Source: Chitinophagaceae bacterium UBA7600
GTDB lineage: Bacteria > Bacteroidota > Bacteroidia > Chitinophagales > Chitinophagaceae
Reading direction: 5' to 3'
DNA: 64,000 nucleotides
Assembly: GCA_002478885.1 (NCBI GenBank)
Contig: DLKC01000043.1
Location: 48,641-112,640, forward strand
Below the pieces are notes generated by a model. It saw only the letters and a list, made by a program, of their open reading frames with translations, did not search any database and had not been told where the DNA came from. Shown here one piece after another: positions 42,293 through 61,598 of this stretch. How positions within the stretch are numbered: position 1 is the first letter of the stretch; each line of letters begins with the position of its first letter. The translations under genes and the position numbers were made by a program.

Positions 42293-42329
42293 CAGAAGCA
42301 TTATAGTAGTAAAATAGACCGGACGATAT

Positions 42330-43700: not shown

Positions 43701-43805
43701 CCATATCTCTGGCATCAAATATTTTCGTCTCCTTTAAAAGAATATGAGTAGATTTATCTGCTCAATCTAAGTCATCATTCATTTTGTCACTACAAAAATT
43801 AAGTT

Positions 43806-44183
43806 ATGAAAAAGACGCTTATTGGTTTTTCCCGGCTTGCCACCCTGTTTGCATTCTTTATGCTGGTTTTTTCCTTTGCCTCCACTGCACAGGACAATAA
43901 ATCAATTACCGGAGAAGTGCTTGATATGAATTGCTACATTGGTCATGGAGCCCATGGCGATGATCATATGTCTTGCGCAACAGCGTGTATCAAAGGTGGT
44001 GCCCCGATGGGATTGCTTACCAGTGATGGAAAAGTTTACCTGTTGGTAGCCGATCATTCCAAAAAGGATGTGTACGAAGAAGTGAAAAAATATGCAGGCG
44101 GACAGGTGACCATTACCGGCGCAGTTTCTGAAAAAGATGGCATCAAAGGCATCGTGGTTACAGAAGTGAAAGCAAAGAGCTGA
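43806..44183 (+). CDS. Small secreted Cys/His-rich protein of unknown function
   Basis: A 125-aa protein with a signal peptide at residues 1-29 (ending STAQ). The mature part starts with a beta-strand pair (ITGEVLDMNCYIG) and continues with a tight cluster of possible ligands: Cys43, His47, His50, His54, Cys57 and Cys61 in NCYIGHGAHGDDHMSCATAC. It ends in an OB-like strand set (GQVTITGAVSEKDGIKGIVVTEV). The cluster could bind a metal or heme or form a disulfide. I do not recognise a named family. It lies just after rhaB but has its own terminator, so a link to rhamnose use is not shown. Confidence 0.75.
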   Translation: MKKTLIGFSRLATLFAFFMLVFSFASTAQDNKSITGEVLDMNCYIGHGAHGDDHMSCATACIKGGAPMGLLTSDGKVYLLVADHSKKDVYEEVKKYAGGQVTITGAVSEKDGIKGIVVTEVKAKS

Positions 44184-44213
44184 TAAGCTTCAAACCCCGA
44201 AATCTTCTTATAT

Positions 44214-44243
44214 AAAAGCTGCAATAAATGCGGCTTTTTATTT
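44214..44243 (+). terminator. Rho-independent terminator after the small Cys/His-rich gene
   Basis: AAAAGC-T-GCA / ATAAA / TGC-G-GCTTTT stem followed by TTATTT, about 30 nt after the stop codon. One mismatch interrupts the stem. Confidence 0.75.
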
Positions 44244-44260
44244 GCCCGGCATTGATAAGG

Positions 44261-44280
44261 CGTTGAAGTGTGCGACGCAA
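44261..44280. repeat. Dispersed repeat family A, right arm
   Basis: CGTTGAAGTGTGCGACGCAA matches the right arm core. It starts about 18 bp beyond the terminator. Confidence 0.8.
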
Positions 44281-44373
44281 GGAACGGCGCCCGGAGCGTT
44301 GAAGCAGGGCACACAAAGAAAATATTCACAGACGCCATTTATACACTTACTACATTCACCCAAAAAAATAACG

Positions 44374-45255
44374 ATGAAACAATTTGCCTTTTTACTTTTA
44401 GCCGCCTCTTTAATTTTCGCAGCCTGCAACAATGGCCAGCAGGCAACTGCCGCGGCCGACACTTCTTCGACCACTGTGACTGTTGACCCCGCGAAAGATT
44501 GGAGGTTTGGTATTGCGTTATGGACATTCCATACCGTAAACTTCCCATTGTCGCTCGACAAAGTTGATTCCGCTAAACTCACGTATATCGAGCCCAATAC
44601 TTTTCACAGTGCGGGGCCTGAATTTAAAGACAGCATTATTGGCCAGCTTTCAATGGAAGGCATTGCAAAGCTAAAGGACATGATCGCCGCAAAAGGGTTG
44701 AAGGTCGAATCTGTTTATATTGTCGGCGATTCAACGCTTGCCTCGTGGGTACACCAGTTTGATATTGCCAAAGCGCTCGGCGTGCAGTTTGTAACAACGG
44801 AGCCACCACTGAATATGTGGAACAGCATCGACAGCCTTGCCGGCGCATACGGCATCAAGGTTGCCATTCATGAGCATTGGAAAGGCTTCAGCCATTACTG
44901 GAATACCGATACCACTTTAATGGCATTGCAGGGCCATCCCAACTTTGCCGTGTGTGCCGATCTTGGCCATTGGCCCAAGAGTGGTGTTGATCCATTGGAT
45001 GCGGTTAAAAAGCTTAGCGGCCACATAATCGCGGTGCACCTGAAAGATATCGCTGGCTATAATGATCCCACGATGAAAGATGTGGTTGTAGGTACCGGTG
45101 TGGTAAAGTTTCCCGAGATTTTTGCTGAGTTGAAGAAGCAGAACTTTAACGGCCACATTTACATTGAAAGAGATTCTGTGGAGCCTACCGGTAATCTTTC
45201 TTCTGTGCTGCAGGAGGTAAAATATTATAACGACCAGGTGTCGAAAATACCATAG
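44374..45255 (+). CDS. Lipoprotein of the xylose-isomerase-like TIM-barrel family
   Basis: The ATG at 44374 gives 293 aa with a lipoprotein signal (MKQFAFLLLAASLIFAAC, lipobox FAAC); upstream in-frame starts would cover the repeat. The mature domain is a sugar phosphate isomerase/epimerase (AP-endonuclease-2 fold) barrel. Its metal-site candidates are in YIEPNTF, VTTEPPL, IHEHWKG, ADLGHWPK, VHLKDI and IYIERDS. Its location outside the cytoplasm argues against a phosphorylated substrate; oxidised or free sugars are more likely. A terminator follows directly. The activity is unproven. Confidence 0.87.
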   Translation: MKQFAFLLLAASLIFAACNNGQQATAAADTSSTTVTVDPAKDWRFGIALWTFHTVNFPLSLDKVDSAKLTYIEPNTFHSAGPEFKDSIIGQLSMEGIAKLKDMIAAKGLKVESVYIVGDSTLASWVHQFDIAKALGVQFVTTEPPLNMWNSIDSLAGAYGIKVAIHEHWKGFSHYWNTDTTLMALQGHPNFAVCADLGHWPKSGVDPLDAVKKLSGHIIAVHLKDIAGYNDPTMKDVVVGTGVVKFPEIFAELKKQNFNGHIYIERDSVEPTGNLSSVLQEVKYYNDQVSKIP

Positions 45256-45275
45256 TCAAATTGTTCAAGATCAGG

Positions 45276-45304
45276 GCCCGCATCAGCATGCGGGCTTTTT
45301 TGTT
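45276..45304 (+). terminator. Rho-independent terminator of the TIM-barrel lipoprotein gene
   Basis: Perfect 8-bp stem GCCCGCAT / ATGCGGGC with loop CAGC and a TTTTTTGTT tail, 21 nt after the stop codon. Confidence 0.92.
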
Positions 45305-45340
45305 TTATGGGCCCGACGTAAGTACAGGGGGGCAGCTTCC

Positions 45341-45360
45341 GTTGCGTCGCACACTTGTGC
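45341..45360. repeat. Dispersed repeat family A, left arm
   Basis: GTTGCGTCGCACACTTGTGC, one change from consensus, between two convergent genes and about 37 bp after the terminator. Confidence 0.85.
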
Positions 45361-45385
45361 TGCAACAACCCGGGGGGCGCTGCTG

Positions 45386-46180
45386 TTAATTGCTGGTATA
45401 TAATTCCGGCTTAAATCTCCCGGCCAGTTTACCGGTTGCCTGCGTGGTGTCTATATCTGCAACAACAACAACCGCCTTGCCATAATCCTGGTAAGCAATA
45501 CAACTGCCGTCAGGGGCAATGATGGAAGAGGCGGATTCCTGGAATTTGGTGGCATAGTTGGCGCTGGCGAAGTAAATCGTGTTTTCCAGGGAACGCATCA
45601 TCATTGCCTGTTCGTAATAAGGATTTTTGTTGCTCCTGTACTCGGTAAGCTGCACGCCAATGGTATTGCTGCCGCTAAAATGCGGATGAAAAACGATGGC
45701 AGCGCCGTTTCTTGCTGCCCATCTTACAGACTCAGGGTAACGAAAGCCCTCATGGCAAATGGTGATGCCAAACTTTACCCCATCAATTTCAAAAAGCCTG
45801 CGCTTTGTGCCGGCCTGCCAGGTATTGTCTTCCGACGGATCTAACTGGTTTTTTGATTGGTAGCCTAAAACTGTTCCATCCGGAGCAATAACCTGTGCAA
45901 CATTCAGGAACTTATCCTCATCAAACCAGTCCATCGGCAGTATAACCGCGATATGATATTTTTTTGCAACATCGCATGCCTGTTGCAACGCAGCCTCCAT
46001 GTTTTCTTTTGTTGATCTCTCTATATTGAATTCTGCAGATGGATAACCGGGTATATAAGATTCAGGAAAGCAGATGATCCTTGCCTGTTGCGCTGCCGCA
46101 GTTTTTACCAACTCTTCCAGTTGAGACAAGCCGTTTTGGATTGAGGTCGGGAACAGGGGTGATGCAATAGCTATTTTCAT
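45386..46180 (-). CDS. Carbon-nitrogen hydrolase (nitrilase superfamily)
   Basis: The start at 46180 gives 264 aa beginning MKIAIASPLFPTS, the normal beta-strand start of this superfamily; 15 extra residues from an upstream ATG look spurious. The Glu-Lys-Cys triad is visible as Glu40 in FPESYIPGYP, Lys110 in YQSKNQLDP and Cys142 in ITICHEGFRYPE. It should cleave an amide or nitrile C-N bond in the cytoplasm. The branch and substrate (amidase, carbamoylase or other) cannot be fixed from motifs. It stands alone and is convergent with the preceding plus-strand gene. Confidence 0.9.
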   Translation of the reverse strand: MKIAIASPLFPTSIQNGLSQLEELVKTAAAQQARIICFPESYIPGYPSAEFNIERSTKENMEAALQQACDVAKKYHIAVILPMDWFDEDKFLNVAQVIAPDGTVLGYQSKNQLDPSEDNTWQAGTKRRLFEIDGVKFGITICHEGFRYPESVRWAARNGAAIVFHPHFSGSNTIGVQLTEYRSNKNPYYEQAMMMRSLENTIYFASANYATKFQESASSIIAPDGSCIAYQDYGKAVVVVADIDTTQATGKLAGRFKPELYTSN

Positions 46181-46281
46181 GCGCAAGGAATTATCGGATG
46201 AAGATAAGTTAGATTTTTGTTGCAATGCCTGTTAGAGCAGTCCGGTCAACAACATTCCCGGTGTTATTATTATCGTGCTGG

Positions 46282-46539
46282 TCATTCCTCCGGCGCAGCA
46301 CTCAAGAGCTCGAAATCGAATATGCCCTTTATTTGTTTGTTGAGAAATGTCCCCTTACTTTTTGCCTTGGTGAAGCCGGTGTACACGTGTAAGGGCACAT
46401 CGAGGTATTGGTAAACCGCCCCTGAAGTATAAACGATTTTCAGAATGTTGTTTACGGCATCGTATCTGAATGATTGAACAACAGTAGAAGGCAAAGTCCG
46501 GTGTTTGTTGTTTTGCACACAAATGTTATGCCTTAGCAT
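46282..46539 (-). CDS. KTSC-domain small protein
   Basis: An 85-aa protein. The core STVVQSFRYDAVNNILKIVY followed by GAVYQYLDVP, then FTKAKSKGTFLNKQIKGIF, matches the KTSC domain (S..v...Yd....L.i.F..G.vY.Y..VP...A.SkG..Fn..I). The domain is found alone or fused to lysyl-tRNA synthetases, nucleases and other proteins, and its function is unknown. The gene lies 101 bp upstream of the nitrilase gene on the same strand. A long-form repeat copy sits directly upstream of its start. Confidence 0.8.
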   Translation of the reverse strand: MLRHNICVQNNKHRTLPSTVVQSFRYDAVNNILKIVYTSGAVYQYLDVPLHVYTGFTKAKSKGTFLNKQIKGIFDFELLSAAPEE

Positions 46540-46546
46540 TTGGTGC

Positions 46547-46580
46547 CATCCCGAATCGTTGCTCCGCGGACGGGCGCATG
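46547..46580. repeat. Long-form repeat insert (family A variant)
   Basis: CATCCCGAATCGTTGCTCCG then CGGACGGGCGCATG, matching the inserted-hairpin part of the long form. It is followed by GATGCTATTGATACTTTAGCCGGG, similar to other right flanks. Confidence 0.65.
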
Positions 46581-46713
46581 AGGTGATGCTATTGATACTT
46601 TAGCCGGGATAAAAACAAATGGCAGACAAAGACTTTTTACCGTTAATGTCATTTTCCGGTACGGGCATTAAAAACGGGCATAATATTTAATGCGGTATTT
46701 GTAAAGCAAACGC

Positions 46714-49425
46714 ATGAGCTTATCCTTATACCGCAAGAAAAGAAGTTTTACCAAAACGCCCGAGCCAACGGGTGGCAAGTCAACAGATGACGCATTACTT
46801 TTCGTGATACAAAAGCATGATGCCTCACATTTGCACTATGATTTTCGCCTGGAGATGGCTGGCGTTCTTAAAAGCTGGGCGGTGCCCAAGGGCCCTTCTA
46901 CTGATCCGTCGGTAAAGCGGCTTGCCATGATGGTGGAAGACCATCCATTCGATTACAGGACTTTTGAAGGCGTTATTCCAAAGGGACAGTATGGCGGCGG
47001 CACGGTGATGGTATGGGATGAGGGCACTTACGAGCCCATGAACGAATATGCTTCAAAGAAAGAAGCCGAGAAGGATTTGTTGAAACAATTGCACAAAGGC
47101 AAGATCATGTTTCAGCTTCACGGGAAAAAACTGAAAGGAGCGTTCGCCCTGGTGAAATCATCATACCAGGGTGAAAACAGCTGGCTACTGATGAAAGCAA
47201 AAGATAAATATGCCAAAGAAACAGATATCACCAAAAAAGAAAAGTCGGTACAGTCGGGCAGGTCGTTGTCGCAGATAGAAAAAGACCCAGAACGTATTTA
47301 CGGCCAGAAGACCATAAAACCAGGCAGCACAGCAAAAAAAGCTGCCGCGAAAAAAAGCCCGGTAACCAAAGCCGGCACAGCTAAAAAAAAAGCGGTAGCG
47401 GCACCCGCTGATCCCGCCATGGCAACAGCCGGCAGGAAGGAACCATTCCCGCTGAACATAGCGCCTATGCTGGCCACATTGGTTGACAAGCCATTTGATG
47501 CGGAAGGCTGGCTGTATGAAATAAAATGGGATGGCTACCGTGCATTGGCTTATCTTAATAGAGGGGAAGTGGAGATAAAGTCACGCAACAATAAATCATT
47601 CAATGAAAAGTTTTACCCGGTATATGATGCTTTAAAAAAACTTGACATGAATGCTGTGCTCGATGGCGAGATCATAGTAGCAGGTGAGAATGGGATCTCC
47701 AACTTTGGTAACCTGCAAAACTGGAGAAGCGAGGCCGACGGGGAGTTGCTGTATTATGTGTTTGACCTGCTTTGGTATCACGGGTATTCACTGATGGGCC
47801 TGCCTCTTTCGGAAAGAAGAGCAAAGCTGGTTGAGCTGCTGCCCGAGAGTGAAGTAATAAGAATCAGCCAGGCCTATGCAACCAGTGGTACCGAATTTTT
47901 TGAAGCTGCCGGTAAGCTAAACCTCGAAGGCATTATGGCAAAAAAGGAAGACGCTGTTTATGTGCCGGGGGCAAGATCAAAAGAGTGGCTAAAGATAAAG
48001 GCTAATAAGCGCCACGAGGTAGTGATCGGCGGGTATACAATCAATGAAGATACTTCCAAGTTATTCAGTGCGTTGCTGGTGGGCGTATTTGAGAAAGGCA
48101 AGTTGCACTATACGGGCAAGGTGGGTACGGGCTTTAATGAAAAGATACAGCAGGAAATAATGCAGGCTTTCGGTCCGCTTGAACAAAAGGAAATACCATT
48201 TGATGAAGTTCCCGATGTGAACAAGCCATCGAGGTTCAGGCCCAATCCGCCCCATGCAACAGTGGTGTGGCTGAAACCACAACTGGTATGCGAGGTGGCG
48301 TATGCCGAAATAACCAGCGATGGCGTGATGCGCCATCCATCGTTTAAGGGTATGCGGGAAGATAAAAAAGCAAAAGATGTGCATACAGAAAAAGCCGTAG
48401 CGGTGGAGAAAGCAGTCAAGCAGGATGCGTCACTTATTGAAAAGAATAAAATGATCAAACCCGTGAAAACAGGCCGCAAGACACTACTTAATCCGGGTGA
48501 CGAAACACAGGTCCGCGTCATTAACAGGCATGAGTTGAAATTCACCAATCTCAGTAAGATATTCTGGCCAAAGGAAAAGATCAGCAAAAGAGACCTGATC
48601 AACTATTATTACCAGGTGGCCCCGGTGATGTTGCCTTATCTGAAAGACAGGCCGCAATCGCTCAACCGGCATCCCAATGGCATAGCAGGAGAGAGCTTTT
48701 ACCAGAAAGATGTTACGGGCAAGGTGCCGGAATGGATCGATACCTTTCCTTACCATAGCGAAGCGGATGACAAAGACAGGAATTTTATGGTATGTACCGA
48801 TGAATCAAGCCTGCTATATATCGCCTCCCTTGGCTGCATAGAGATGAATCCCTGGAGCAGCACGATACAGTCACCTGATAAACCAGACTGGTGTATCATC
48901 GATCTTGATCCGGACAACAATACGTTTGACAGCGTAATAGAGGCTGCGCTGGTTACAAAGGATGTGCTTGACAGCGTGGGTGTTCCCTCTTACCCGAAAA
49001 CATCGGGATCAACGGGCATGCATATTTATATTCCGCTTGCCGCGAAATATACTTACGAGCAGTCAAAAGAGTTTGCGCGGGTGATCGTAAAGCTGGTGTA
49101 TGCGCAAATACCTTCGTTTACGAGCATAGAACGCGCTACCAGGCTGAGAAAGGGAAAACTGTACCTGGACTTCCTGCAAAACCGCCCCCAGGCGACCCTT
49201 GCTGCACCCTATTCAGTGAGGCCAAAGCCGGGGGCCACCGTTTCTGCGCCATTAAGTTGGGATGAAGTAAAGCCTGGCCTTAAAATGAAAGACTTCAATA
49301 TTTTTACTATGACGGAAAGGTTGCAAACAAAAGGTGACCTGTTTAAGCCTGTACTGGGTAAAGGGATTAACATGAATGCCGCGTTAAAGAAATTATCTGC
49401 ATTGGTGGAGCAGGAGGAAGAATAG
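46714..49425 (+). CDS. ligD: DNA ligase D (PE-LIG-POL)
   Basis: A 903-aa multifunctional enzyme of bacterial non-homologous end joining. Residues ~25-165 are the 3'-phosphoesterase domain (HDASHLHYDFRLE with His41 and Asp43; WAVPKGPS). A Lys/Ala-rich linker follows (~200-240). Residues ~245-535 are the ATP-dependent ligase with adenylated Lys271 in YEIKWDGYRA and motifs DGEI, EGIMAKK and WLKIK, plus an OB fold. Residues ~615-890 are the primase-like polymerase with the catalytic pair in CIIDLDPD and the segment KTSGSTGMHIY. The order PE-LIG-POL differs from mycobacterial POL-PE-LIG. It needs a Ku protein, which is not in this window. Confidence 0.95.
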   Translation: MSLSLYRKKRSFTKTPEPTGGKSTDDALLFVIQKHDASHLHYDFRLEMAGVLKSWAVPKGPSTDPSVKRLAMMVEDHPFDYRTFEGVIPKGQYGGGTVMVWDEGTYEPMNEYASKKEAEKDLLKQLHKGKIMFQLHGKKLKGAFALVKSSYQGENSWLLMKAKDKYAKETDITKKEKSVQSGRSLSQIEKDPERIYGQKTIKPGSTAKKAAAKKSPVTKAGTAKKKAVAAPADPAMATAGRKEPFPLNIAPMLATLVDKPFDAEGWLYEIKWDGYRALAYLNRGEVEIKSRNNKSFNEKFYPVYDALKKLDMNAVLDGEIIVAGENGISNFGNLQNWRSEADGELLYYVFDLLWYHGYSLMGLPLSERRAKLVELLPESEVIRISQAYATSGTEFFEAAGKLNLEGIMAKKEDAVYVPGARSKEWLKIKANKRHEVVIGGYTINEDTSKLFSALLVGVFEKGKLHYTGKVGTGFNEKIQQEIMQAFGPLEQKEIPFDEVPDVNKPSRFRPNPPHATVVWLKPQLVCEVAYAEITSDGVMRHPSFKGMREDKKAKDVHTEKAVAVEKAVKQDASLIEKNKMIKPVKTGRKTLLNPGDETQVRVINRHELKFTNLSKIFWPKEKISKRDLINYYYQVAPVMLPYLKDRPQSLNRHPNGIAGESFYQKDVTGKVPEWIDTFPYHSEADDKDRNFMVCTDESSLLYIASLGCIEMNPWSSTIQSPDKPDWCIIDLDPDNNTFDSVIEAALVTKDVLDSVGVPSYPKTSGSTGMHIYIPLAAKYTYEQSKEFARVIVKLVYAQIPSFTSIERATRLRKGKLYLDFLQNRPQATLAAPYSVRPKPGATVSAPLSWDEVKPGLKMKDFNIFTMTERLQTKGDLFKPVLGKGINMNAALKKLSALVEQEEE

Positions 49426-49435
49426 CGGCTTGTGC

Positions 49436-50527
49436 GGGTTTCGGAACCTCATAGGCCTGAACCGGGATTTCCGGGCTTTAAAAAAGATGGGAGGGATGGA
49501 ACAATTTTGCGGTACTGTGAATTCATTAATCTTTTGCATATTGATTATGATCGTAGTGAGCATACGAAGAATGGGAACCACATAGGCACATAGGTTTGCC
49601 TGAAGCAGGATTTAAGGATGGGAGGATGGAGCAAGTTTTCGATGCTGCGAATTCATTAATCTTTCGCATGCTGATGCTGATGGTAGTGTGCATACGAAGA
49701 ACGGGAACCACATAGGCACATAGGTTTGCCTGAACCGGGGTTTCCGGGCTTTAAAGATGGGAGGGATGGAACAATTTTGCGGTACTGTGAATTCATTAAT
49801 CTTTTGCATGTTGATTCTGATCGTAGTGAGCATACGAAGAATGGGAACCACATAGGCACATAGGTTTGCCTGAAGCAGGATTTCCGGGCTTTACAGATGG
49901 GAGAAGATGAAACAAGTTTGCGGTACTGTGAATACATTAGTCTTTTGCATGTTGATTCTGATAGTAGTGAGCATACGAAGAATGGGAACCACATAGGCAC
50001 ATAGGTTTGTCTAAACCGGGATTTCCGGGCTTTAAAGATGGGAGGGATGGAGCAAGTATGTGGTACTGTGAATACATTAGTCTTTTGCATGTTGATTCTG
50101 ATGGTAGTGTGCATACGAAGAATGGGAACCACATAGGCACAGAGGCTTGCCTGAAGGGAGGATTTCCGGGCTTTACAGATGGGAGAAGATGGAACAAGTT
50201 TGCGGTACTGTAAATACATTAGTCTTTTGCATGTTGATTCTGATAGTAGTGAGCACACGAAGAATGGGAAGCACATAGGCACATAGGTTTGCCTGAAAAT
50301 GGATTTCCGCGCTTTAAAAATGTGGGGATGGAACAAGCTTGCGGTACTGTAAATACATTAGTCTTTTGCATGTTGATTCTGATAGTAGTGAGCACACGAA
50401 GAATGGGAACCACATAGGCACATAGGTTTGTCTAAACCGGGATTTCCGGGCTTTAAAGATTAACAGGATGCAATTGTGTTATACTATCCTGCAAATCCTT
50501 AAATCTTTTTCATCCTGATTCTGACAA
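49436..50527. repeat. Tandem array of eight 130-142 bp palindromic units
   Basis: Units begin near 49443, 49574, 49704, 49844, 49985, 50125, 50267 and 50406, each with GGAACCACATAGGCACATAG or a variant (the first is shortened). Each unit has a forward arm (CTGAACCGGGATTTCCGGGC) and, about 50 bp later, a roughly inverted arm ending TGTTGATTCTGAT. The last unit ends in CATCCTGATTCTGAC. The array sits between the converging 3' ends of ligD and the TIR gene. Minus-strand frames through it are repetitive and not real genes. Confidence 0.92.
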
Positions 50528-50547
50528 TGGCGAATAGCGAGACAGCC

Positions 50548-50596
50548 GTGCAAGTGAGTGATCCCGAATCGTTCCTCCCGGGACAAGCGCAACGGA
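50548..50596. repeat. Long-form right arm of repeat family A
   Basis: GTGCAAGTGAGTGATCCCGA then ATCGTTCCTCCCGGGACAAG then CGCAACGG. It shows the normal arm start, the inserted TCCCG...CGGGA hairpin, then the normal CGCAAC arm end. Confidence 0.8.
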
Positions 50597-50660
50597 AGTC
50601 TAATAGTAGTACTGCTGCCTGGATCATAATTCTACTGGTTTAAAGATCAACAGGGTGAAG

Positions 50661-50708
50661 TTAAATGAGCGATCCCGAATCTTTCCTCTCGGGACAGGCG
50701 CAACGAAA
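50661..50708. repeat. Long-form right arm of repeat family A, second copy
   Basis: TTAAATGAGCGATCCCGAAT then CTTTCCTCTCGGGACAGG then CGCAACGAAAG, about 110 bp from the previous copy, just beyond the 3' end of the TIR gene. Confidence 0.75.
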
Positions 50709-50753
50709 GCCCAATGGTAGCGCTTACAGCCGGGCACATGTAAAAACCACCGT

Positions 50754-53700
50754 TTATTCCCTGGCGAAATATTCTCCGGATGATTTTATGTAATCGATCA
50801 ATTGCTGCACGGAGTTATTTCCCGGATCCAGTTGCTGCGCGCTTTCGAGGGCAGCCAGTGCATACTTCATTTGCGATAACTGGTAGTGGGCTATTCCCTT
50901 CATGAACCAATATTCTGCATACTGATCATTGATCCGGAGCGCATTTTCTTCAGCAGCAATAGCTTCTTCGTAACGTTGCAGTTTTATCAGGCAACTTGCT
51001 TTTAAATTGTAATGGTCCGGGTTAGCGGGCGCCAGTGAGATGAGTACCTCTATGTCAAGGATTGCGTTTTCAAAATCGTCAGTTTCGTAAAAATGCCAAG
51101 CTCTTTTATACAAAGCCTGGTAGTGTTTTGCCTCTATTTTAATAGCCGAACACAGATCGTTGAAGAAGGCTTGTTTATCGGTATTTTCATAGCAAAGGGC
51201 CCGATAATAATATGCGTCGCTGAATGCAGCATTAAGCTCGATTGTTTTTGCCAGGTCGGCGATTGCTTTGTCAAATTGCTGCGTATGATAAAGAGCGAGG
51301 CCACGCCACCAGTAGCTGTTCACAACAACCGGGTGTTCGGGCCTTACGCGGATCATAGAACCAGCGATACGTATCACTGCTTCATGGTTACCCTGGTCCT
51401 GCAGTTGATGCACTTTGTTTGTAAGAACAAACAGGGCATTGCGGACACTCATAATTTCATCGATGGCAATGCTAAGTTTTGATTCATCCTGCCCGTCTAT
51501 AACTTGCGAAATGAGCGGTTCATACAGGTCCGGGCGTGCCTTTCCGCCTTCCATATTTGCTACCAGACTAAGGGAACCGTCCTCCTCCATGATCTGTATG
51601 CCGGCAGGAGGTTGTTCAAACTCATGAATGTAAACAAGCAGCGCCCTGATATGATTTCTGTAGGTTGCCGTATCACTTTGCAACAGCGCGCTTAATATGT
51701 TACCTGCGACCTCTTTATCTTCATGAGCAGCGAGCGCTTTTGCGGCTTTATCCCGCACTGATTCTTCCGGGTCATCCAACGCCAGGGGCAACAACATGCT
51801 GATCACATGCTCCGCTTTCCAACCACCGGCGGTCCAACTATTGCCAAAAACTTCCAATATACTTCCCAATATGGTTGCCAGCATTTTTCTATGTAATGCA
51901 CCGGGTTGTTCCATTAAAAAATGCGCAACAGACGACAACAGCGCCCGTAAACCGTTTCCCCTCCCATGTCTCAGCAGTTCACCAAATGCCAGGCTATTGT
52001 TTTCAACAATGTTTTTATTTGTTTCTTTCATTAATGCCTGCAGGAAAGGTTCAAGCAATATATCACCCCTTGATGAGTGGCTACATTGCACAAAGGCCTG
52101 CCACCTTACCAGGTCGCGTTTATCTTCAAACGCTCTCTTTAAGAATTCGGCGCCGCCTGCGCTATTATACAACCCGCTTGCTGTGCAGATCATATTTCTT
52201 GCAGCATTTTCGGAAGCCGTTTCGAATGTGTTAAGGAATATTTCGATCAAATCGGTATCACCCCCGATTGCATCCAGGAAATTAGCAGCCGTAAACCTTA
52301 AGCCCCGTCCTGTATCAAAGTCATCCTGTTTCCATTGTGCAAGAAAAATCCCTGTCTTTAAAGCGCGAGCTCTCAATGGTTCATCCTGCCCGGAGGAAAT
52401 TTTTGTTGCAAGTTTAGTGCTGAATACCCTGAATTGCCTTTCCGCCTGTGTCAATTCTTCTTTGCTGAGCGGCGTACTAAAAATTTTTTCAAACCACTCA
52501 CCCGTAAAGATGAAATCAGCAGCAGCAGAGTTTCCCTTTACATAACTTGCCGTAATGCGGTGCAATGAATATTGCCGTGCAGCAGGGTGTTTGGGATCCT
52601 CTGAAACATTTATCCAGCTCCGTTTTAAGAGTATCCCAAGATCGCGTTGCTCACAGCCCAGCAGCAATAATTTTTCCGGTACCGGTGCAACAGCGATTTG
52701 AGAAAGCGTTTTTAGCATACGGAATGCCTGGGCATAACTGCGCAGTGCCTCAAATGAAAAATGGAATAGTTCAGCGATACTTCTTACATAACCTTCGGCC
52801 ACTTCCTCTTTAATGCTATCCACTTCTTCATCAAGCGCTATGGCAGGTTCTTCTCCATTCACTTTCTTCATAAGCGTATCAGCGGAAAGATAATGGTCAC
52901 CCAAACTTGTGTGTAATATGCGTAAGGCCAGCGGCAGGTAACCAACCCATTTTGCCGTTTTTTTCCAGTTCTCTTCGCTAAGCCAATGTTCATCCACCGG
53001 TGGCTGAACCAGCAGGTCAACGGCCGCATCTTCGGTCAATTCCGTTAGCGCAATAATGGTATCTGCATCTTTTATTCCCGCCTGTCTTGATGTTCCCAGT
53101 AAACTGACTTTATTCCTTACGGGGCACCAATAATCCAGGCGTTTTGGTGATGTGCCTTTTCCTGGTTCGGGTATATTATCGACTACCCACAATATTTTTT
53201 TATCAGCCGGTATGGAGTTAAAGCATTGTTGCAGTTGTGTCGAAAGCTGTTGCAGTGTATTGGCGGGCTGAATGCCTTTTGACAAAGCCATGATCACTTC
53301 TTTAAACTGCGCGGCCAGTTGTTCCTCGTCACTGCCTGCATCAATCCAAACAATGCCACCTTCATAATAACGAAAACCATAACGCCACACATATTCTGCG
53401 GCTAATTGTGTTTTGCCCATGCCGGCGGAGGCCTCAATAACAACGGCGCGGTTTGCATCAGCCGCCGCTTTCAATTCCAGGCCATTATATATTTCCCATA
53501 ATTTTTCCGCACGGCCGATAAATTGTTCTTTCAACGATTCGGGCAACGAATAAAGATAATTTGGGACAGCGGTTGATTTTGACGCCCAGGGAACAAGCCC
53601 TCCATTCAGCAAGCTTTCAGTAAACGGATCATCAACTACAGTTAATTTATCCTTTGCTACAGCAGGCGCATTTAAGATCCCGAGTGCCATGGCTGCTGCT

Positions 53701-54101
53701 GCTTCTGTTTGATCTTCTTTTAGCCAGGACTTCACTGATAAAGGCGGCGGGAGCAATGCCGAAATTTTATCTATGGGGCCTGATGATGGTAATAAGATCA
53801 TTATCCTGTCGAGCAGCCCGCCTGCAGGTTTGCTTTTGTTAACTGAATTGCGGTAAGGCCCGAGCGCCGATTGAAATTCAAGCACACACCATGGCTTGCT
53901 GAAATAAGTTTCTGTTGCAAACACAATCACCATCCGTGATTCAACCAGTCCTTTTGCGAGGTGCCGGGGAAAAGTTGAGCCGCCAGGTATTTCATTTTCA
54001 TCAAAAAAAACACTACATCCTTTTTCGATAAGTTTATCACGCAAAGCTTTCGCCTCCTGCGCTGAGGAACTTCTTGCATACGAGATAAAGACATCATTCA
54101 T
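50754..54101 (-). CDS. TIR-NB-ARC (STAND) NTPase with HEAT- and TPR-like repeats
   Basis: A 1115-aa cytoplasmic protein with the domain logic of plant and animal NLR immune receptors. The TIR domain is residues 1-135 (MNDVFISYAR; candidate catalytic Glu75 in SKPWCVLEF). The NB-ARC-type ATPase is ~185-420: Walker A ASAGMGKT (224-231), Walker B ILWVVDN (Asp308), LLGTSR (334-339) and a GLPL-like GYLPLAL (387-393). A winged-helix/helical region leads to HEAT-like repeats (~600-850, for example VRDKAAKALAAHEDKEVA). At least four TPRs cover ~915-1105. Known relatives sense a phage product through the repeats, oligomerise, and use TIR to deplete NAD. It is a single gene with no obvious partner, flanked by repeats. 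Confidence 0.9.
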   Translation of the reverse strand: MNDVFISYARSSSAQEAKALRDKLIEKGCSVFFDENEIPGGSTFPRHLAKGLVESRMVIVFATETYFSKPWCVLEFQSALGPYRNSVNKSKPAGGLLDRIMILLPSSGPIDKISALLPPPLSVKSWLKEDQTEAAAAMALGILNAPAVAKDKLTVVDDPFTESLLNGGLVPWASKSTAVPNYLYSLPESLKEQFIGRAEKLWEIYNGLELKAAADANRAVVIEASAGMGKTQLAAEYVWRYGFRYYEGGIVWIDAGSDEEQLAAQFKEVIMALSKGIQPANTLQQLSTQLQQCFNSIPADKKILWVVDNIPEPGKGTSPKRLDYWCPVRNKVSLLGTSRQAGIKDADTIIALTELTEDAAVDLLVQPPVDEHWLSEENWKKTAKWVGYLPLALRILHTSLGDHYLSADTLMKKVNGEEPAIALDEEVDSIKEEVAEGYVRSIAELFHFSFEALRSYAQAFRMLKTLSQIAVAPVPEKLLLLGCEQRDLGILLKRSWINVSEDPKHPAARQYSLHRITASYVKGNSAAADFIFTGEWFEKIFSTPLSKEELTQAERQFRVFSTKLATKISSGQDEPLRARALKTGIFLAQWKQDDFDTGRGLRFTAANFLDAIGGDTDLIEIFLNTFETASENAARNMICTASGLYNSAGGAEFLKRAFEDKRDLVRWQAFVQCSHSSRGDILLEPFLQALMKETNKNIVENNSLAFGELLRHGRGNGLRALLSSVAHFLMEQPGALHRKMLATILGSILEVFGNSWTAGGWKAEHVISMLLPLALDDPEESVRDKAAKALAAHEDKEVAGNILSALLQSDTATYRNHIRALLVYIHEFEQPPAGIQIMEEDGSLSLVANMEGGKARPDLYEPLISQVIDGQDESKLSIAIDEIMSVRNALFVLTNKVHQLQDQGNHEAVIRIAGSMIRVRPEHPVVVNSYWWRGLALYHTQQFDKAIADLAKTIELNAAFSDAYYYRALCYENTDKQAFFNDLCSAIKIEAKHYQALYKRAWHFYETDDFENAILDIEVLISLAPANPDHYNLKASCLIKLQRYEEAIAAEENALRINDQYAEYWFMKGIAHYQLSQMKYALAALESAQQLDPGNNSVQQLIDYIKSSGEYFARE

Positions 54102-54208
54102 GTTGCATGAATTAGTGACGGACGATTAATCGTATGACAAGATAAATCTTTATCTTTTCCCCTGAACCGACACTTTTTGTTACAAACTTTATATCCTTCC
54201 CCGGCTTA

Positions 54209-54229
54209 GGTTGTGTCACTCACTTGTAC
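54209..54229. repeat. Dispersed repeat family A, left arm
   Basis: GGTTGTGTCACTCACTTGTAC, the TCACTCAC subtype also seen at 1317 and 6614, in the gap between the divergent TIR and TIM-barrel genes. Confidence 0.8.
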
Positions 54230-54360
54230 AGTTGCACGAATGTCATCTTAAAGAATAAAACTGCTAACCGGCAGCGTTCCAATCCGCGCTTGTTGGTTTT
54301 TTCCTATATCTTAGGATTGCGAATCTATCTACACAGATATTGTTCCATAAAAATTCAGAT

Positions 54361-55356
54361 ATGAAAACGTCCAGAAGAGTTTTTATTAAAAGGTCATCCA
54401 TGGCAGTAGCTGCAACAGGCTTAGCTTCAGCACTGCCTTCCGTGCTTCACGCCAACCCGGCAAAAAGTGAGTTGCCCTTCAAACTGGCCTTGTCACAATT
54501 TTCCCTGGCAGGGCAATTCTGGACAAAACAGTTAGACCCGCTTGATTTCCCCAAAAAGACCATTACGACCTTTGGTATCCCGGGCCTCGATTATTGCTCT
54601 ATGTTTTTTGCCGATAAAGCAAAAGACAACAGTTTTTTAAATGAATTAAAAAAGCGCTCAGCAGATAATGGCTGTTTTAACCTGCGTATTATGATCGATG
54701 GGGAAGGTGTATTAGGCGACCTCGATAAAAGTATAAGGGCAAAGGCTGTAGAAAATCACTACAAATGGATTGATGCCGCAGCAACACTTGGTTGCCCGAT
54801 GATACGTGTAAATGTGGAAGGAGAAGGCGACCCGGCTGAAGTAGCAAAAGCAGCTATAGAAAGCCTGCACACATTGATTGATTATGGAAGGAAAAGCGAT
54901 GTCGATGTAATAGTAGAGAATCATGTTGGCATTTCGTGCAATGGTGCATGGCTGGCCGCTGTAATGAAGGCGATGAATACCCCACATTGCGGCACGCTTG
55001 CAGACTTTGGCAATTTTTGCATTAACAGAACCAAGCCTCCCACAAATGATATTGCCGGATGGATGCAAACAAAATGCCTCGAAGAGTATGACCGCTACAA
55101 AGGAATTAAGGAACTGATGCCCTATGCGAAAGGAGTGCACGCAAAAACACATGTGTTTGATGCCGATGGTAATGATACGGAAACAGATTTTGCAAAGATG
55201 TTTATGATTATAAAGGAATCAGGCTTCAGCGGTTGGGTAAGCGTAGAGTATGAAGGAGGTTTGATAAAAATGTATAGTAAAGATGATAAATACCTGGATG
55301 ATGATGCAGGTGTGCTTGCGACAAAAAAACTCATTGAAAAAGTAGCAGCAGGTTAA
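54361..55356 (+). CDS. Tat-exported xylose-isomerase-like TIM-barrel protein
   Basis: The ATG at 54361 gives 331 aa and places the twin-arginine motif SRRVFIKRSS at residues 4-13, followed by a hydrophobic stretch and a cleavage site near VLHANP. A Tat signal implies export after folding, often with a bound metal. The barrel belongs to the sugar phosphate isomerase/epimerase family. Likely metal-site and substrate segments are GLDYCSMFF, IRVNVEGEGD, VIVENHVGIS, TLADFGNFC, GVHAKTHVFD and WVSVEYEGG. It probably acts on a free or oxidised sugar in the periplasm. A weak Bacteroidota-like promoter (TATCTTAG after a TTG-rich stretch) lies near 54290-54320. Confidence 0.9.
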   Translation: MKTSRRVFIKRSSMAVAATGLASALPSVLHANPAKSELPFKLALSQFSLAGQFWTKQLDPLDFPKKTITTFGIPGLDYCSMFFADKAKDNSFLNELKKRSADNGCFNLRIMIDGEGVLGDLDKSIRAKAVENHYKWIDAAATLGCPMIRVNVEGEGDPAEVAKAAIESLHTLIDYGRKSDVDVIVENHVGISCNGAWLAAVMKAMNTPHCGTLADFGNFCINRTKPPTNDIAGWMQTKCLEEYDRYKGIKELMPYAKGVHAKTHVFDADGNDTETDFAKMFMIIKESGFSGWVSVEYEGGLIKMYSKDDKYLDDDAGVLATKKLIEKVAAG

Positions 55357-55720
55357 CTGATCATGCAGAGGAGCCGATATCACCGGATTTCTCTTATGCT
55401 AAATGCCGCCCGGGAGCTGTATAGAAAAAAATACTTATTCGTGATTGGTAAAAGCAAATTGTTTAATTTCCGTGACCATTCGCATGGAAAGCAGCTTTCT
55501 GTAACCCTATGTTTTCCCTTTAGGAATTAATGCCGCATGGCTTAAGGTGATTTTAATAAAGCACGCAGTTAATACCGCTTATCTACCAAGTATCTATTAA
55601 GTATCTACCGGGTATCTATTGCTTTAGGGACAAGCAAAAGCTGCCCAGGTATATTGTTTTCCTTTTTTTTGTTTATTTGTCTCACCGGCAAAACTTAAGC
55701 CGGGGAACAATCACAACCAT
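55357..55720. other. Intergenic region with 11-bp repeat array
   Basis: 364 bp with no gene; it contains the array at 55557-55626 described separately. A T-rich stretch at 55662-55680 precedes the membrane-protein gene. Confidence 0.6.
55557..55626. repeat. Four 11-bp tandem repeats inside a 7-bp inverted repeat
   Basis: The units ATCTACCAAGT, ATCTATTAAGT, ATCTACCGGGT and ATCTATTGCTT run head to tail from 55581 to 55624. TAAAGCA (55557-55563) and its exact complement TGCTTTA (55620-55626) enclose them. The layout matches the unrelated array at 27279-27369. Confidence 0.8.
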
Positions 55721-56185
55721 ATGGCCATACAAACAACCGACAACAATTATTTCAAGTCACTTACTGTTTTATATACCGCTTTGCTGGCAGGGCAGGTGAT
55801 CTTTTTGCTGCTGTCTGTATTCCTTGTCTTTTCCGGCAATTTTGTCAACCGCATGCCGGAGCTGGAGAATATTTTCTTTATTGCGGTACCCGCGTCGATT
55901 ATTATTGCAAGGCTGGCAGGTAACCTGTTGTTTAAAAGAAAAGTGCAAGACGCGGTTAACATGACTTCCAACAGCGACAAACTAAATGCCTACCGGGCAG
56001 CATTTCTCACCCGTTGCGCATTGCTTGAATTTTCCACCCTTTTTGCCATCATCAGTTTTTTGCTGACCAACAGGATGGAGCTGCTTGTTTTTGCTGCAGG
56101 CGGCCTGTTTCTTTTTGTAACGCTGAAGCCTTCCAAAGAAAAAGTTGCCAATACTTTACAGGTAAGCGAGGCGGATATTTCGTAG
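55721..56185 (+). CDS. Small four-helix membrane protein of unknown function
   Basis: A 154-aa protein with four predicted transmembrane segments (about residues 14-38, 48-66, 90-112 and 116-134) and short polar loops; both ends are polar and probably cytoplasmic. There is no cleavable signal and no catalytic motif. The pattern (LYTALLAGQVIFLLLSV, then AVPASIIIARLAG) resembles small Bacteroidota integral membrane proteins without a named function. Neighbouring genes do not suggest a role. Confidence 0.8.
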   Translation: MAIQTTDNNYFKSLTVLYTALLAGQVIFLLLSVFLVFSGNFVNRMPELENIFFIAVPASIIIARLAGNLLFKRKVQDAVNMTSNSDKLNAYRAAFLTRCALLEFSTLFAIISFLLTNRMELLVFAAGGLFLFVTLKPSKEKVANTLQVSEADIS

Positions 56186-56378
56186 CTTTTTATACCACTA
56201 AAGATTCGCTGACAGCCATGCGTGGCGGTAGCGAAAACTCCTCCCGGTGTATTCATCCAAAAGTCCATACCAGTTATAAAAAATTGCTGTATAAAAACGC
56301 AGCATTCCGATAAAGCAACACCAGTTTATGTGTAGCTTTATCAAACAGGATTTTAATTAAGCTAACAAAACAACTATT

Positions 56379-57995
56379 ATGAAAAAACACCACAGCCTGC
56401 TGGCATTGGCCATGCTATTATCGTCCATTGCATTTACACAAAACAGTTTCCAGAAACAAATCAACGCCGTTGGCGGTTCTGTTTCCGATCCCAGGATGGC
56501 CGCTATTGACGGTGGCGGAACCATCATCACCGGTAGCTATGTTTCCAGCCGGGTTTCCCTTAACAAGGTAATGCTGGCAAAGCTTGACAAAGACGGGGAG
56601 CCCTTATGGGCAAGAGCCTTTGGGTCAGACAATGCCAACTATTACCCGCTTGCTGTAATACCTTGCCGCGACGGTGGATTCGTGGTAGCAGGGGAGTCGC
56701 TCGACGTTGGTTTTAATGTCTTTGTAGTAAAATATACCGGAACTGGCGTGTTGTCCTGGCAGCGTAAATTCAACTACAGTGCATCGGGTTACTATTCCAT
56801 GTATTTAAGGGCTGGCATTGCCGCTTCGGACAGCACTATATTACTTACAGGTACAACCAACCTGTCTTCGCTCGGCGATGCCTTTGTGCTGAATATGAAC
56901 CAGTCAGACGGCAATGTCAACTGGTTCAGGGCAGCAGGGACAGCCGGACTTAATGAAACCGGTTACAATATCAACAGAACACCTGATAACGGGTTTGTCA
57001 TTGGCGGCTGGTCAGGTTATCCCGGCAGCCTGGGCGACAACTTTCTCGTGGTAAAATATAACCGCAAGGGCAGGCCGGAGTGGAGCAAGACTTTCTGGAA
57101 TACCAATGCTACCGGTAATGACGAAATCACCGGCATTGCGGCGGCGCCTGATGGCGGTTACGTATTTACCGGCGATACCTATACCAGCAACAACAGTTAC
57201 GATCGCGTACTTGTAAAACTGGCTGCAGATGGCAGCCTGGAATGGGGCAGGCAATTGAAAATGCCTTCGTATGATGTAAGTGCGGATGTTATTAACACAA
57301 AAGACGGCAGTTATATCATTGGCGGTTCCAATGGCAACGGCAATGCGGTCGTCACCCGTTTTACGGCGGATGGGGATAGTGCTTTTACTACCAGGTTTGA
57401 TACCTTTCGTAATTATGGTTCGCTGATGCGGCAGGGCAAAAAAATATACAGCGTTACATCATCGGCTATCAGCGCAAGGTCGGCCATTGTTATTACCGGT
57501 TACGACAGCCTTGTGCAAACCTGTGATGCGGTAACGACCGTTGATACTGTATCCAATTTCCCGCTTAATACCATCAGCAGAACATACCACAGTGCCGACC
57601 TCACCGACTCGTTGATCAGTTATCCGAGCCTGCTGTCAGACACGGCTATCACACTGGTTACAAAATTGCTCTGCTGGGATAGCGTGCCGGTGCCCGTTAC
57701 CCAAAACGATGTTTCCGATATCACGGCTAAAGGCGCAACGGCTGTTGCTGTAAGCGTTTATCCAAACCCGGTTGCGGGTAGCAGCCTCCATATCCGGCTC
57801 AGTGGCTTTACGGGGCCCGTAACGGTGTTGATCAGTGATATGCAGGGCCGTGTGGTTGCACAGCAAAATATCCGATCTGATGCAGCGCTGTCAGCAACTA
57901 CCATCAACATAGGCCAGTTAACACCGGGCACTTATGCGCTTACCGTAACAGCTGCCGGGAGGAAAGGCGTCGTGAAATTTATAAAGATGCAGTAA
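56379..57995 (+). CDS. Secreted propeller-like protein with T9SS sorting domain
   Basis: A 538-aa exported protein with a signal peptide at residues 1-20 (ending AFTQ). Residues ~25-330 hold repeated units of the type DGGFVVAG...VKYxxxGxxxWxRxF, typical of WD40/YVTN-like delta-60 repeat beta-propellers. A poorly defined segment (~340-440) follows. A type A T9SS sorting domain closes the protein (VSVYPNPVAGSSLHIRL through LTPGTYALTVTA and KFIKMQ). It is probably displayed on the surface or released. The ligand or substrate is unknown. It is convergent with dnaE2, with a repeat-A arm between them. Confidence 0.88.
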   Translation: MKKHHSLLALAMLLSSIAFTQNSFQKQINAVGGSVSDPRMAAIDGGGTIITGSYVSSRVSLNKVMLAKLDKDGEPLWARAFGSDNANYYPLAVIPCRDGGFVVAGESLDVGFNVFVVKYTGTGVLSWQRKFNYSASGYYSMYLRAGIAASDSTILLTGTTNLSSLGDAFVLNMNQSDGNVNWFRAAGTAGLNETGYNINRTPDNGFVIGGWSGYPGSLGDNFLVVKYNRKGRPEWSKTFWNTNATGNDEITGIAAAPDGGYVFTGDTYTSNNSYDRVLVKLAADGSLEWGRQLKMPSYDVSADVINTKDGSYIIGGSNGNGNAVVTRFTADGDSAFTTRFDTFRNYGSLMRQGKKIYSVTSSAISARSAIVITGYDSLVQTCDAVTTVDTVSNFPLNTISRTYHSADLTDSLISYPSLLSDTAITLVTKLLCWDSVPVPVTQNDVSDITAKGATAVAVSVYPNPVAGSSLHIRLSGFTGPVTVLISDMQGRVVAQQNIRSDAALSATTINIGQLTPGTYALTVTAAGRKGVVKFIKMQ

Positions 57996-58044
57996 GAGAC
58001 TATTTGTAATGACTGGCCAAACAACTGCACGGGCAGCAGCTGTT

Positions 58045-58064
58045 GTTGCGTCGCACACTTGTAC
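58045..58064. repeat. Dispersed repeat family A, left arm
   Basis: GTTGCGTCGCACACTTGTAC, perfect consensus, between two convergent genes. Confidence 0.88.
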
Positions 58065-58155
58065 TGCAACAAGTAACGCTGCTTCTTTTCGTTGGAGTTA
58101 AAAATGGCCTTGCGAAAAAATACCGTAACCATGTCATCGAAAACTTTCCGGCTGC

Positions 58156-61100
58156 TTATTTAAAATTTCTGCCGTTTGGAAAATGTTCTTCCCCTGCAGT
58201 TTGCCGCACCTGTGTTGTCCTGTTTGCGGTTTCGAAGGGGAAGCCATTGTTTTCATCCCGTGGAGATAAAGTAAGAACCGGGAGGTTTTCTTTGTTTGCG
58301 GCAGTTAAGCCACGCAACAATTTTGTAAAGTCAGCACAGGTTTGCACGATCACATGAATCACTTCTCCTTCTTTCTGGAGTTTGCCTTCCACCATTATTA
58401 ATTTCGATTGCAGGATCTCTTTCCTGTAGGTAACTTCAAACAGGTTGCGGAAGATGACCAGGTTGGCTGTGCCGGTTTCATCTTCAATGGTCATAAAACA
58501 AATGCCGCCCGCGGTTCCAGGTCTTTGTCTTACCAGCACCAGTCCTGCCACCCTTACTATATCACCATTATTGCCTTTTGTTAAATCACTTGTTGGTATC
58601 ACGGAAAACAACTGCAGTTTTTCGCGTACAAAACTCACCGGGTGTGCTTTTAAAGAAAGCGCTGTTGCTGCATAATCCTGCACTACGTGTTCTGATAAAG
58701 TCATCAGCGGCAGTTGTATGTTTTTTTCTGTGGTGCTTTCTGATGGCTGCCCTTTGAATACCCCGGCAGGATTATCGTTTAAAGAAGTGATCTCCCACAA
58801 AGCCTGCCGCCTGTCGATACCAAGCGAGCGGAAAGCATCAGCATCTGCCAGTTTCTCCAATGCAGCAATGGATACACCTGCATCCAGTATTTGATTGATA
58901 CTTGTAAACATTTTGTTTCTTGCCGATACCAGTATCTCCATCTCTTCCATACGCAAGCCTTTCACCTGCCTGAAACCAAGTCTGAGTGCACAGTTGGCCT
59001 TTGAAGCTTTGTCCCCATCCGCTTCCCTTGCATGATCCGAAGTAGGGGGCAATGGTTCGAGTGTATTGTCCCAGTAAGCATGATTTACATCCACAGGCCT
59101 TATTTCAACGGCATGATTGCGGGCATCACTTACAATTTGTGCAGGGGCATAAAAGCCCATGGGCTGACTGTTTAATAAGCCACAGGCAAATACATCGGGA
59201 TAGTAACACTTGATCCATGCAGATACATATACCAGCAATGCAAAACTTGCCGCATGGCTTTCGGGAAAACCATAACTCCCAAAACCTTCGAGTTGTTTAA
59301 ATACCCTTTCCGCATATTCCTTGGTGTAACCGTTCTTCAGCATGCCATTGATCAGTTTTTCGTGGAATTGTGAAACAAGCCCTTTGGCTTTGAATGTGGC
59401 CATACTCCTGCGTAAGCCGTCTGCTTCTGCAGGGGTAAAGCCTGCTGCAACGATGGCAATGCGCATTGCCTGTTCCTGGAAGAGTGGCACGCCCAATGTG
59501 CGTTCCAGTATATCTTTCAGTTCCTGTGAAGGGTAGGTTACTTCTTCTTCGTTATTTCTACGCCTTAAATATGGATGTACCATGTCGCCCTGTATGGGTC
59601 CCGGCCTTACAATCGCCACTTCAATAACGAGGTCATAGAATTTTTGAGGCCTTAGTCTTGGTAACATGGATTGTTGTGCACGGCTTTCTATCTGGAATAC
59701 CCCAATGGTATCTGCATGGCTGATCATGTCGTATACTGCCTTATCATCCTGTGGAATGTTTGCCAGCGTAAGATCGAGGCCATAGTGTTTTTTTACTTCA
59801 TCAAAACATTTGCGGATACAGGTAAGCATACCGAGGGCAAGTACATCTATCTTCAAAAAGCCCAGCGCATCAATATCATCTTTGTTCCATTCTATGCAGG
59901 TCCGGTTTTCCATTCTTGCATTGAGTATGGGGCAGAGATGCGAAAGCTTTTGTTGTGTAATAACAAAGCCACCGGTATGCTGCCCGAGCTGCCTGGGGAA
60001 GCCAATGTATTGTTGGGTGAGTTGCAATACTTTTTTCAGATGCGCATTACCGGTATCAATGCCCTGCTCCTGCATGGCTTTATTGTCAAACGAGTCACCG
60101 GTAAATTCCCAAACAGATTTGGCAAGACGGTTTACGGTATCGGGTGATAAACCCATTGCTTTGGCTACATCCCGCACTGCACCTTTCTGGTGTTGTTGTG
60201 TAACGGTAGCAACAATTGCTGCCCTGTCACGCCCATATTTGTTGTAGATATATTGCATTACTTCTTCCCTGCGTTCGTGTTCGAAGTCAACATCTATATC
60301 AGGTGGCTCATTGCGTGCAGCAGAGAGAAACCTTTCAAACAACAGATCAAATTTTATTGGATCTACTGATGTAATACCCAGGCAATAGCAAACAGTGGAA
60401 TTGGCAGCAGAACCCCTGCCCTGGCAAAGAATGTTTTGCTGCCTTGCAAAACGCACAATATCGTGCACCGTAAGAAAGTAAGCGGCATAATTCATCTGTT
60501 CAATAAAAGCCAGTTCATGCTTTATTGTTGCGGATGTTTTTGCGGGTATTGTCTCCCCGAATTTTTCTTTTGCCCCTTCCCAGGTAAGCATGGTTAATTC
60601 TTCCTGTGCTGTTCTGCCCCCTGTCGTTATTTCTTCAGGGTATACGTATTTGAGGCTATCAAGACTAAAGCGACAGGCTTCCGCGATCTCCTGTGTGCGG
60701 TTTATGGCATCAGGGTACTGGCGAAACAGGCGTTGCATTTCCTCACCTGGTTTTAAATAGCGTTCCGCATTTTCATGCAAACGAAAACCCGCATTGTAGA
60801 TCGTACATTTTTCGCGGATGCATGTCAGCACATCCTGTAATTGCCGTCTCGACGGGTGATGATAGTGTACATCGTTTGTCGCAACCAATGGAATATGGAA
60901 GCGTTGTGCGAGTTGATCAAGGCGAAACAGTTTTTTAAAATCATCTCCCTGGTAAGTGCGTATAGCTCCGATGTACAGGTCCCTGCCAAAGGCTTCGTGG
61001 TATTCTGCTATTGTTTGTTTAAAGGGGTTATCAAAATCAAAAACAGGGTTTAAGGTAGCAGGGGGCACAATTATAAACTTCATGCCCTTTGCATGTTCAT

Positions 61101-61434: not shown

Positions 61435-61482
61435 TGTTTTTTATTTGCTGTTTTACCAGCTGTATGTTCGTAACTCATCTGC

Positions 61483-61548: not shown

Positions 61549-61598
61549 AAAGCATTATTGATATTCTTTGCCGGGTACATAAAATATCCTCTTCCTGT

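Follow-up and report, generated by a model that had tools for sequence, protein, structure and literature searches.

The locus at 50754-54101 on the minus strand of a 64,000-nucleotide stretch of DNA from Chitinophagaceae bacterium UBA7600 (hereafter the window) raises the question of whether one bacterial gene holds all the parts of an NLR-like immune receptor, and whether such a receptor would guard the cell against phages. The original prediction, made from the sequence alone, had read it in this way and had further taken the gene to be a mobile one. The open reading frame codes for 1115 amino acids, has an ATG start and is without an internal stop; together with family matches and a structure model it gives the order TIR, NB-ARC, HEAT-like region, beta-hairpin and TPR. 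This suggests a one-gene bacterial NLR-like receptor, a STAND protein of the NB-ARC class, and also a resemblance to plant disease-resistance proteins, which likewise join an enzymatic head to a nucleotide switch and an extended repeat sensor. The predicted structure of the full protein has a mean predicted local distance difference test (pLDDT) score of 87.7. The claim that the receptor is complete in a single gene is borne out, as one reading frame contains the TIR, the NB-ARC and the sensor, and the catalytic and switch residues are invariant in all 24 members of the family described below.

Family and alignment

A search of about 5.8 billion proteins at E ≤ 1e-10, in which the best ~8,000 candidates were scored, gave at least 30 matches, among them the window protein's own entry (P0001) and 23 members of one family (P0002-P0024). 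Identity to the window protein is 47-52% for four of these (P0002-P0005), with full-length relatives reaching 51-52%, and 29-38% for the remaining 19, whose matches cover 48-99% of its length. The family did not grow in a profile search, again with the best ~8,000 candidates scored: the five rows new there were a TIR-containing fragment (P0031) and four TPR proteins. Since only so many candidates were scored, and since P0023, P0025 and P0029 were missed by the profile search, the family must be larger than counted and 24 is a lower bound. The alignment of 24 rows consists of the window protein and P0002-P0024 (P0001 was left out), while P0025-P0029 and P0031 form an outgroup of six proteins; P0030 (a TPR protein, 16% covered) and P0032-P0035 (TPR proteins, 5-15% covered) were dropped. 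Residues invariant in the 24 rows include S7, F32, D34, G41, W71, C72, E75, G227, G229, K230, D308, N309, T337, G387, P390 and H514. On adding the outgroup, 11 of 14 inspected positions stay identical in all 30 rows (S7, C72, E75, G227, G229, K230, D308, T337, G387, P390 and H514), and W71, T231 and R339 vary.

TIR domain

The TIR domain spans residues ~1-150 (53652-54101, minus strand). The Pfam TIR_2 model matches residues 4-81 at 60.9 bits, above its curated cut-off, and both the TIR_2 and TIR models match all 24 members. The putative catalytic glutamate, Glu75 (53877-53879), is a glutamate in 24/24 members and in 6/6 outgroup proteins. In a comparison with PDB sequences the domain comes closest to plant Roq1 and bacterial TIR 3h16, and Glu75 is aligned to position 86 of the Roq1 chain, which we take to be the catalytic glutamate of Roq1. 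A TIR domain carrying this residue has the sequence expected of a TIR NADase. A conserved glutamate is required by bacterial TIR NADases, according to the available part of PMC10022894.

NB-ARC switch

Residues 189-530 (52512-53537) form an NB-ARC with HD1 and a winged helix. The Walker A motif ASAGMGKT (residues 224-231, 53409-53432) has G227, G229 and K230 in 24/24 members and T231 in 22/24, the other two having S. Asp308 of the Walker B motif LWVVDN (53178-53180) is present in every member, as are G387 and P390 of the GLPL-like motif GYLPLAL (residues 387-393, 52923-52943). These three features and Glu75 all lie at the positions that had been given for them. To them we add two motifs that the original prediction does not mention: a TSR motif of the RNBS-B or sensor 1 type (residues 337-339, 53085-53093; T in 24/24, S in 20/24 and R in 23/24) and an MHD-like motif LHR (residues 513-515, 52557-52565), whose His514 is shared by all 24 members and all six outgroup proteins. 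All the above are on the minus strand.

It may be noted that the Pfam NB-ARC model (PF00931) has no match to the window protein at E ≤ 0.1, where only sub-threshold AAA_22 and nSTAND_NTPase5 appear; it is therefore motifs and fold that carry the NB-ARC assignment. Its basis is fourfold: the NCBIfam model FxSxx_TPR (NF040586) matches residues 192-480 at 76.2 bits, far under its cut-off of 300; Pfam NB-ARC matches 5/24 members at E ≤ 0.01; the motifs are invariant; and the switch is structurally matched by CED-4, Apaf-1, RPP1 and NRC4. Foldseek and structural alignment also place the TIR-NLRs Roq1 and WRR4A among the matches of the switch. A winged helix is part of the definition of NB-ARC STAND receptors. 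The protein has this winged helix in its model. It also carries Walker A, the Walker B Asp, a sensor-1 TSR/TTR, GLPL and an MHD-like motif, the motif list being the one in the available text of PMC9806590.

Sensor region

A HEAT-like helical solenoid of residues ~531-832 (51606-52511) is seen as helices in the model and is matched by HEAT_2 of Pfam at residues 758-820 (34.5 bits, above the curated cut-off). It is followed by a beta-hairpin of two modelled strands (residues 834-849, 51555-51602) and by a TPR solenoid (residues ~857-1114, 50760-51533), for which several Pfam TPR models score above their curated cut-offs, with the best stretches within ~998-1097; the three parts are again on the minus strand. 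The layout is common to the family. The middle region (531-832) is 243-310 amino acids long in 23/24 members, the exception being P0024, which has 113 and is without most of the HEAT-like part. The hairpin stretch (833-851) keeps a length of 19-22 amino acids in 24/24 rows with divergent sequence, and the part from alignment position 906 onward, which is mostly TPR, varies in length between 98 and 300 residues. HEAT_2 is found at E ≤ 0.01 in 15/24 members and in 0/6 outgroup proteins.

A maximum-likelihood tree was built from the TIR-NB-ARC part; it is unrooted and has 12 of 27 inner branches well supported. In it the 24 members form one side of a 100/100 branch, with the caution that the proteins were gathered by similarity to the window protein and some separation is therefore built in. 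The suggestion that a HEAT-then-TPR sensor defines a distinct subgroup holds up, because this branch, the HEAT_2 contrast with the outgroup and the shared layout of HEAT-like region, hairpin and TPR tail all go with it. Probably it is a small, unusual sub-family of a known general kind. The kind itself, a TIR-STAND receptor with a helical-repeat sensor, is already published and tested, and the group with the composite sensor seems unnamed; among the literature matches listed, no title or abstract start describes a bacterial TIR-NB-ARC-HEAT-TPR class, which is weak evidence as subscription journals are largely outside the search.

Mean pairwise column identity is 0.42 for the TIR, 0.46 for the NB-ARC core, 0.37 for the winged-helix part and 0.20-0.27 for the solenoid stretches. 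This suggests a conserved engine and a divergent sensor, a profile that repeat proteins often show. One may go further and imagine a distinct bacterial TIR-NLR class, as yet without a name, in which the conserved HEAT-like solenoid and hairpin would relay binding to the switch and an exchangeable TPR tail of variable repeat number would set ligand specificity, such that one scaffold could recognise different phage proteins. We offer this tentatively, as an idea with rather less than even chances. A small group of this make-up, with TIR and NB-ARC motifs intact and a composite HEAT-like/TPR sensor, would help to separate the ligand-binding part of a sensor from the part that relays to the switch.

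Distribution

Four overlapping genome samples, each including the own genome, were searched; they were drawn from the family (294 genomes), the order (396), the phylum (395) and the class (395). Two first-look candidates were scored per listed genome in the first two, and in the last two the query was the first 498 residues with up to three candidates scored. Matches to the TPR region alone (query or model ~898-1108) were set aside and not counted as carriers; these account for 24 of the 25 genomes with matches in the 294-genome sample and for one of two in the 396-genome sample. On this count the own genome is the only carrier in every sample, and there the gene is single-copy. A further scan gave a distant TIR/NB-ARC locus (L011) with 23% identity over residues 3-248. 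The occurrence is thus rare and patchy, which suits an accessory gene.

Comparison with known systems

P4-like satellites carry the nearest described system, a TIR-NLR (Rousset et al. 2022, PMC9122126), which is a single TIR-STAND-TPR gene reported to protect E. coli from phages under its native promoter. As in the window protein, there is one gene with an N-terminal TIR, a central STAND NTPase and C-terminal TPRs, the architecture that the reading frame, Pfam matches and model give here; the available text of that paper describes TPRs only and no HEAT region, and the two proteins are compared by description only.

Plant proteins form the second point of reference. Cell killing by a maize TIR-NB-ARC-TPR (TNP) protein depends on its NADase site and P-loop, as stated in the available part of PMC9806590. 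Plant TNP proteins and the TIR-NLRs Roq1, RPP1 and WRR4A share with the window protein the TIR and NB-ARC and the Walker A, TSR/TTR, GLPL and MHD-like motifs, and on structural comparison the predicted TIR and NB-ARC folds of the TIR-NLRs are the same. Their sensor, however, is made of TPRs or leucine-rich repeats, and structural alignments with TIR-NLRs give 16-18% identity. The domains match RPP1 at a root mean square deviation of ~19; the domain arrangement therefore differs from that of RPP1.

Among bacterial proteins, P0025-P0029 and P0031 have a TIR and NB-ARC with the invariant residues of the window protein, W71 excepted, but stand on the opposite side of the 100/100 branch, and P0025-P0029 have TPR_10/TPR_12 sensors with no HEAT match at E ≤ 0.01 (P0031 is a fragment). 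Some of the six are named FxSxx-COOH system TPR protein (Pyxidicoccus) or TIR protein (Archangium, Longimicrobium). AP-ATPases with an N-terminal TIR and C-terminal TPRs occur near peptide-processing systems, according to the available part of PMC7159879. The window protein itself falls outside the FxSxx-COOH TPR family by its NF040586 score given above, and no radical-SAM match was found among the scanned window proteins, though no search aimed at an FxSxx peptide was made. The Avs/AVAST systems resemble the window protein in combining a STAND switch, a helical-repeat sensor and an N-terminal effector. No Avs-named model is among the receptor's 12 PADLOC matches at E ≤ 1, however, and the window protein, unlike Avs/AVAST, is of the NB-ARC class with an MHD-like motif.

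Proposed function and alternatives

The gene probably serves in phage defence and is of a general kind that is already known. In the resting state an ADP-bound NB-ARC and the HEAT-like/TPR solenoid would keep the TIR domains separate. The composite solenoid would bind a ligand, for which a phage protein is the likeliest candidate; the nucleotide exchange that follows in the NB-ARC would let several copies form a ring through this domain, the clustered TIR domains would cleave NAD+ through Glu75, and the loss of NAD+ would halt growth or kill the infected cell before phages mature. We regard abortive infection by such a one-gene receptor as likely, if well short of certain, because the domain order lies in one reading frame, the key residues are invariant in the 24 members and six outgroup proteins, and the confident model has an NLR-like switch. 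The conserved engine set against a divergent sensor, the variable C-terminal length and the patchy occurrence argue in the same direction, as do the protection of E. coli by a TIR-STAND-TPR gene and the dependence of the plant protein on its NADase site and P-loop.

The same receptor could instead use its TIR to make a messenger of the cyclic ADP-ribose (cADPR) type for an unlinked effector, in a Thoeris-like or plant-like manner, rather than to deplete NAD+. Both bacterial and plant TIR domains make cADPR isomers, according to the available part of PMC10022894, and in sequence the nearest neighbours of the receptor's TIR are plant Roq1 and stand-alone bacterial TIRs. The ThsB models of PADLOC and the ThcB4 model of NCBIfam also match, but they cover the TIR domain only and are below any full-length match. 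Family scans of the flanks and PADLOC revealed no effector gene beside the receptor, and the complete one-gene architecture needs no partner, so that we hold a messenger to be an unlikely, if serious, alternative to NAD+ depletion. STAND proteins have many roles, and the locus lies among metabolic and repair genes, as would be in keeping with a signalling protein that puts the same switch to use for a non-phage cue such as stress, self/non-self between cells, or development. An active-site glutamate intact in every member, an occurrence too patchy for a housekeeping regulator and a nearest tested architecture that is anti-phage make this quite improbable. A decaying or inactive copy, to which the adjoining tandem array and the rarity of a single-copy gene might point, is hardly credible for a full-length open frame with intact motifs and full-length relatives at 51-52% identity.

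Several results weigh against the phage-defence receptor as we propose it. No defence genes stand beside it, the flanks being occupied by sugar-catabolism genes, by LigD and by a pair of error-prone polymerase genes; none of 10 flanking proteins (42330-63311) has a PADLOC match at E ≤ 0.001, and the locus bears no sign of mobility. A mobile-element or defence-island setting, typical though not strictly defining for a TIR-NLR anti-phage system, was thus not found here. A search of 72,556 plasmid records (E ≤ 1e-15) found no receptor match, 50,697 phage records gave two matches only, both to the TPR region, and no match was confirmed in viral contigs. The PADLOC matches of the receptor itself are partial, most being through the TIR, one (HEAT-ARM_XIII, E 9.5e-5) through residues 770-947 and one weak match through the P-loop, and none spans the whole protein. 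A faster-evolving repeat region is to be expected of any helical-repeat protein. Whole-model Foldseek template modelling scores are low, 0.13-0.27 by query length among the matches listed, because single domains match. Only residues 178-563 and 989-1115 are well tested in the structural alignment, as per the aligner's note, with no family excluded; it therefore gives little fold evidence for the TIR and HEAT-like parts.

The earlier phage-defence interpretation is accordingly kept for the one-gene TIR-NB-ARC receptor, its invariant residues and its HEAT-like-then-TPR subgroup, and given up for the mobile defence gene. The receptor is a natural candidate for phage-defence screens, and bacterial relatives of plant resistance proteins inform on the origin of NLR immunity.

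Locus and flanking repeats

The left flank holds a sugar-catabolism cluster resembling rhamnose use (27633-45255), followed by a carbon-nitrogen hydrolase, a KTSC protein and LigD; the right flank holds a sugar-isomerase-like gene and the genes of three further proteins, one ending in a Por C-terminal tail, one a DnaE-type DNA polymerase and one IMS/ImuB-like. Rfam gave no match in 44000-64000. Absence of a partner gene, as had been proposed, is confirmed: the upstream neighbour is the divergent isomerase-like gene (54340-55356), and downstream, repeat DNA extends as far as the end of LigD at 49425. This repeat DNA contains mechanical open frames of 226 and 86 amino acids, but we judged it to be non-coding.

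That the gene lies amid repeats is true of its 3′ side and not of the other. A tandem array of a 140-bp unit in about seven copies (71-92% identical to the reference copy) occupies 49455-50460 between the convergent LigD and receptor genes, in apparently non-coding DNA, and two copies of a dispersed 58-nt repeat (50552-50609 and 50663-50720) adjoin the gene. The array is confined to the locus, as all its five matching rows in the genome fall there, and contig C99 has one further copy of its 16-base core. The stretch adjoining the gene gave at least 41 rows in the genome (40 of 97 candidates scored): one to itself, three to ~50486-50531 and 37, partial matches elsewhere in the genome, to the 58-nt elements. 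Mobility inferred from the repeats was rejected, the array having no other genomic match and the nearer repeats being dispersed genome-wide. An imperfect 19-nt inverted repeat (84%; 50543-50561 and 54216-54234) flanks the gene; it was rejected as element ends because its left arm overlaps the dispersed repeat and about one such pair is expected by chance (a rough hand estimate for 5.3 kb). It may be the edges of the dispersed repeat or a chance pair.

Other features give the mobile defence gene no support either. ARAGORN found no tRNA in the window, and no transposase or integrase family is prominent among the scanned neighbours, the DnaE-type polymerase having one sub-threshold HTH_Tnp match. 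The GC content of the gene is native (0.458 as against 0.454 for the window). The locus may still be compatible with an old transfer or with an island that is older or degraded. On comparing relatives, the isomerase-like neighbour was present in 4 of 18 others, and the four stretches of 15-20 kb around it had no match at E ≤ 1e-8 to any of 11 other window genes, among them LigD. In one relative (G003) a single contig carries LigD and, ~30 kb away, the DnaE-type/ImuB-like pair, a spacing too loose to define an insertion point; the 40 kb fetched there gave no receptor match.

Other observations

LigD (46714-49425) and the genes of the DnaE-type polymerase and IMS/ImuB-like protein (58156-63311) are 9 kb apart in the window, and the latter two are possibly a mutagenesis cassette. 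The own genome has nine TIR_2 matches, the receptor gene included; those at loci L001 and L003-L008 are on contigs C104, C5, C50 and C65, with three clustered inside 7 kb of C104 and a further two on C5. A TIR-rich defence region elsewhere in the genome is possible; open frames were inspected in L001, L003, L006 and L007. Far from the receptor, 1457-9158 of the window carries three successive MacB/FtsX-type permease genes on one strand.

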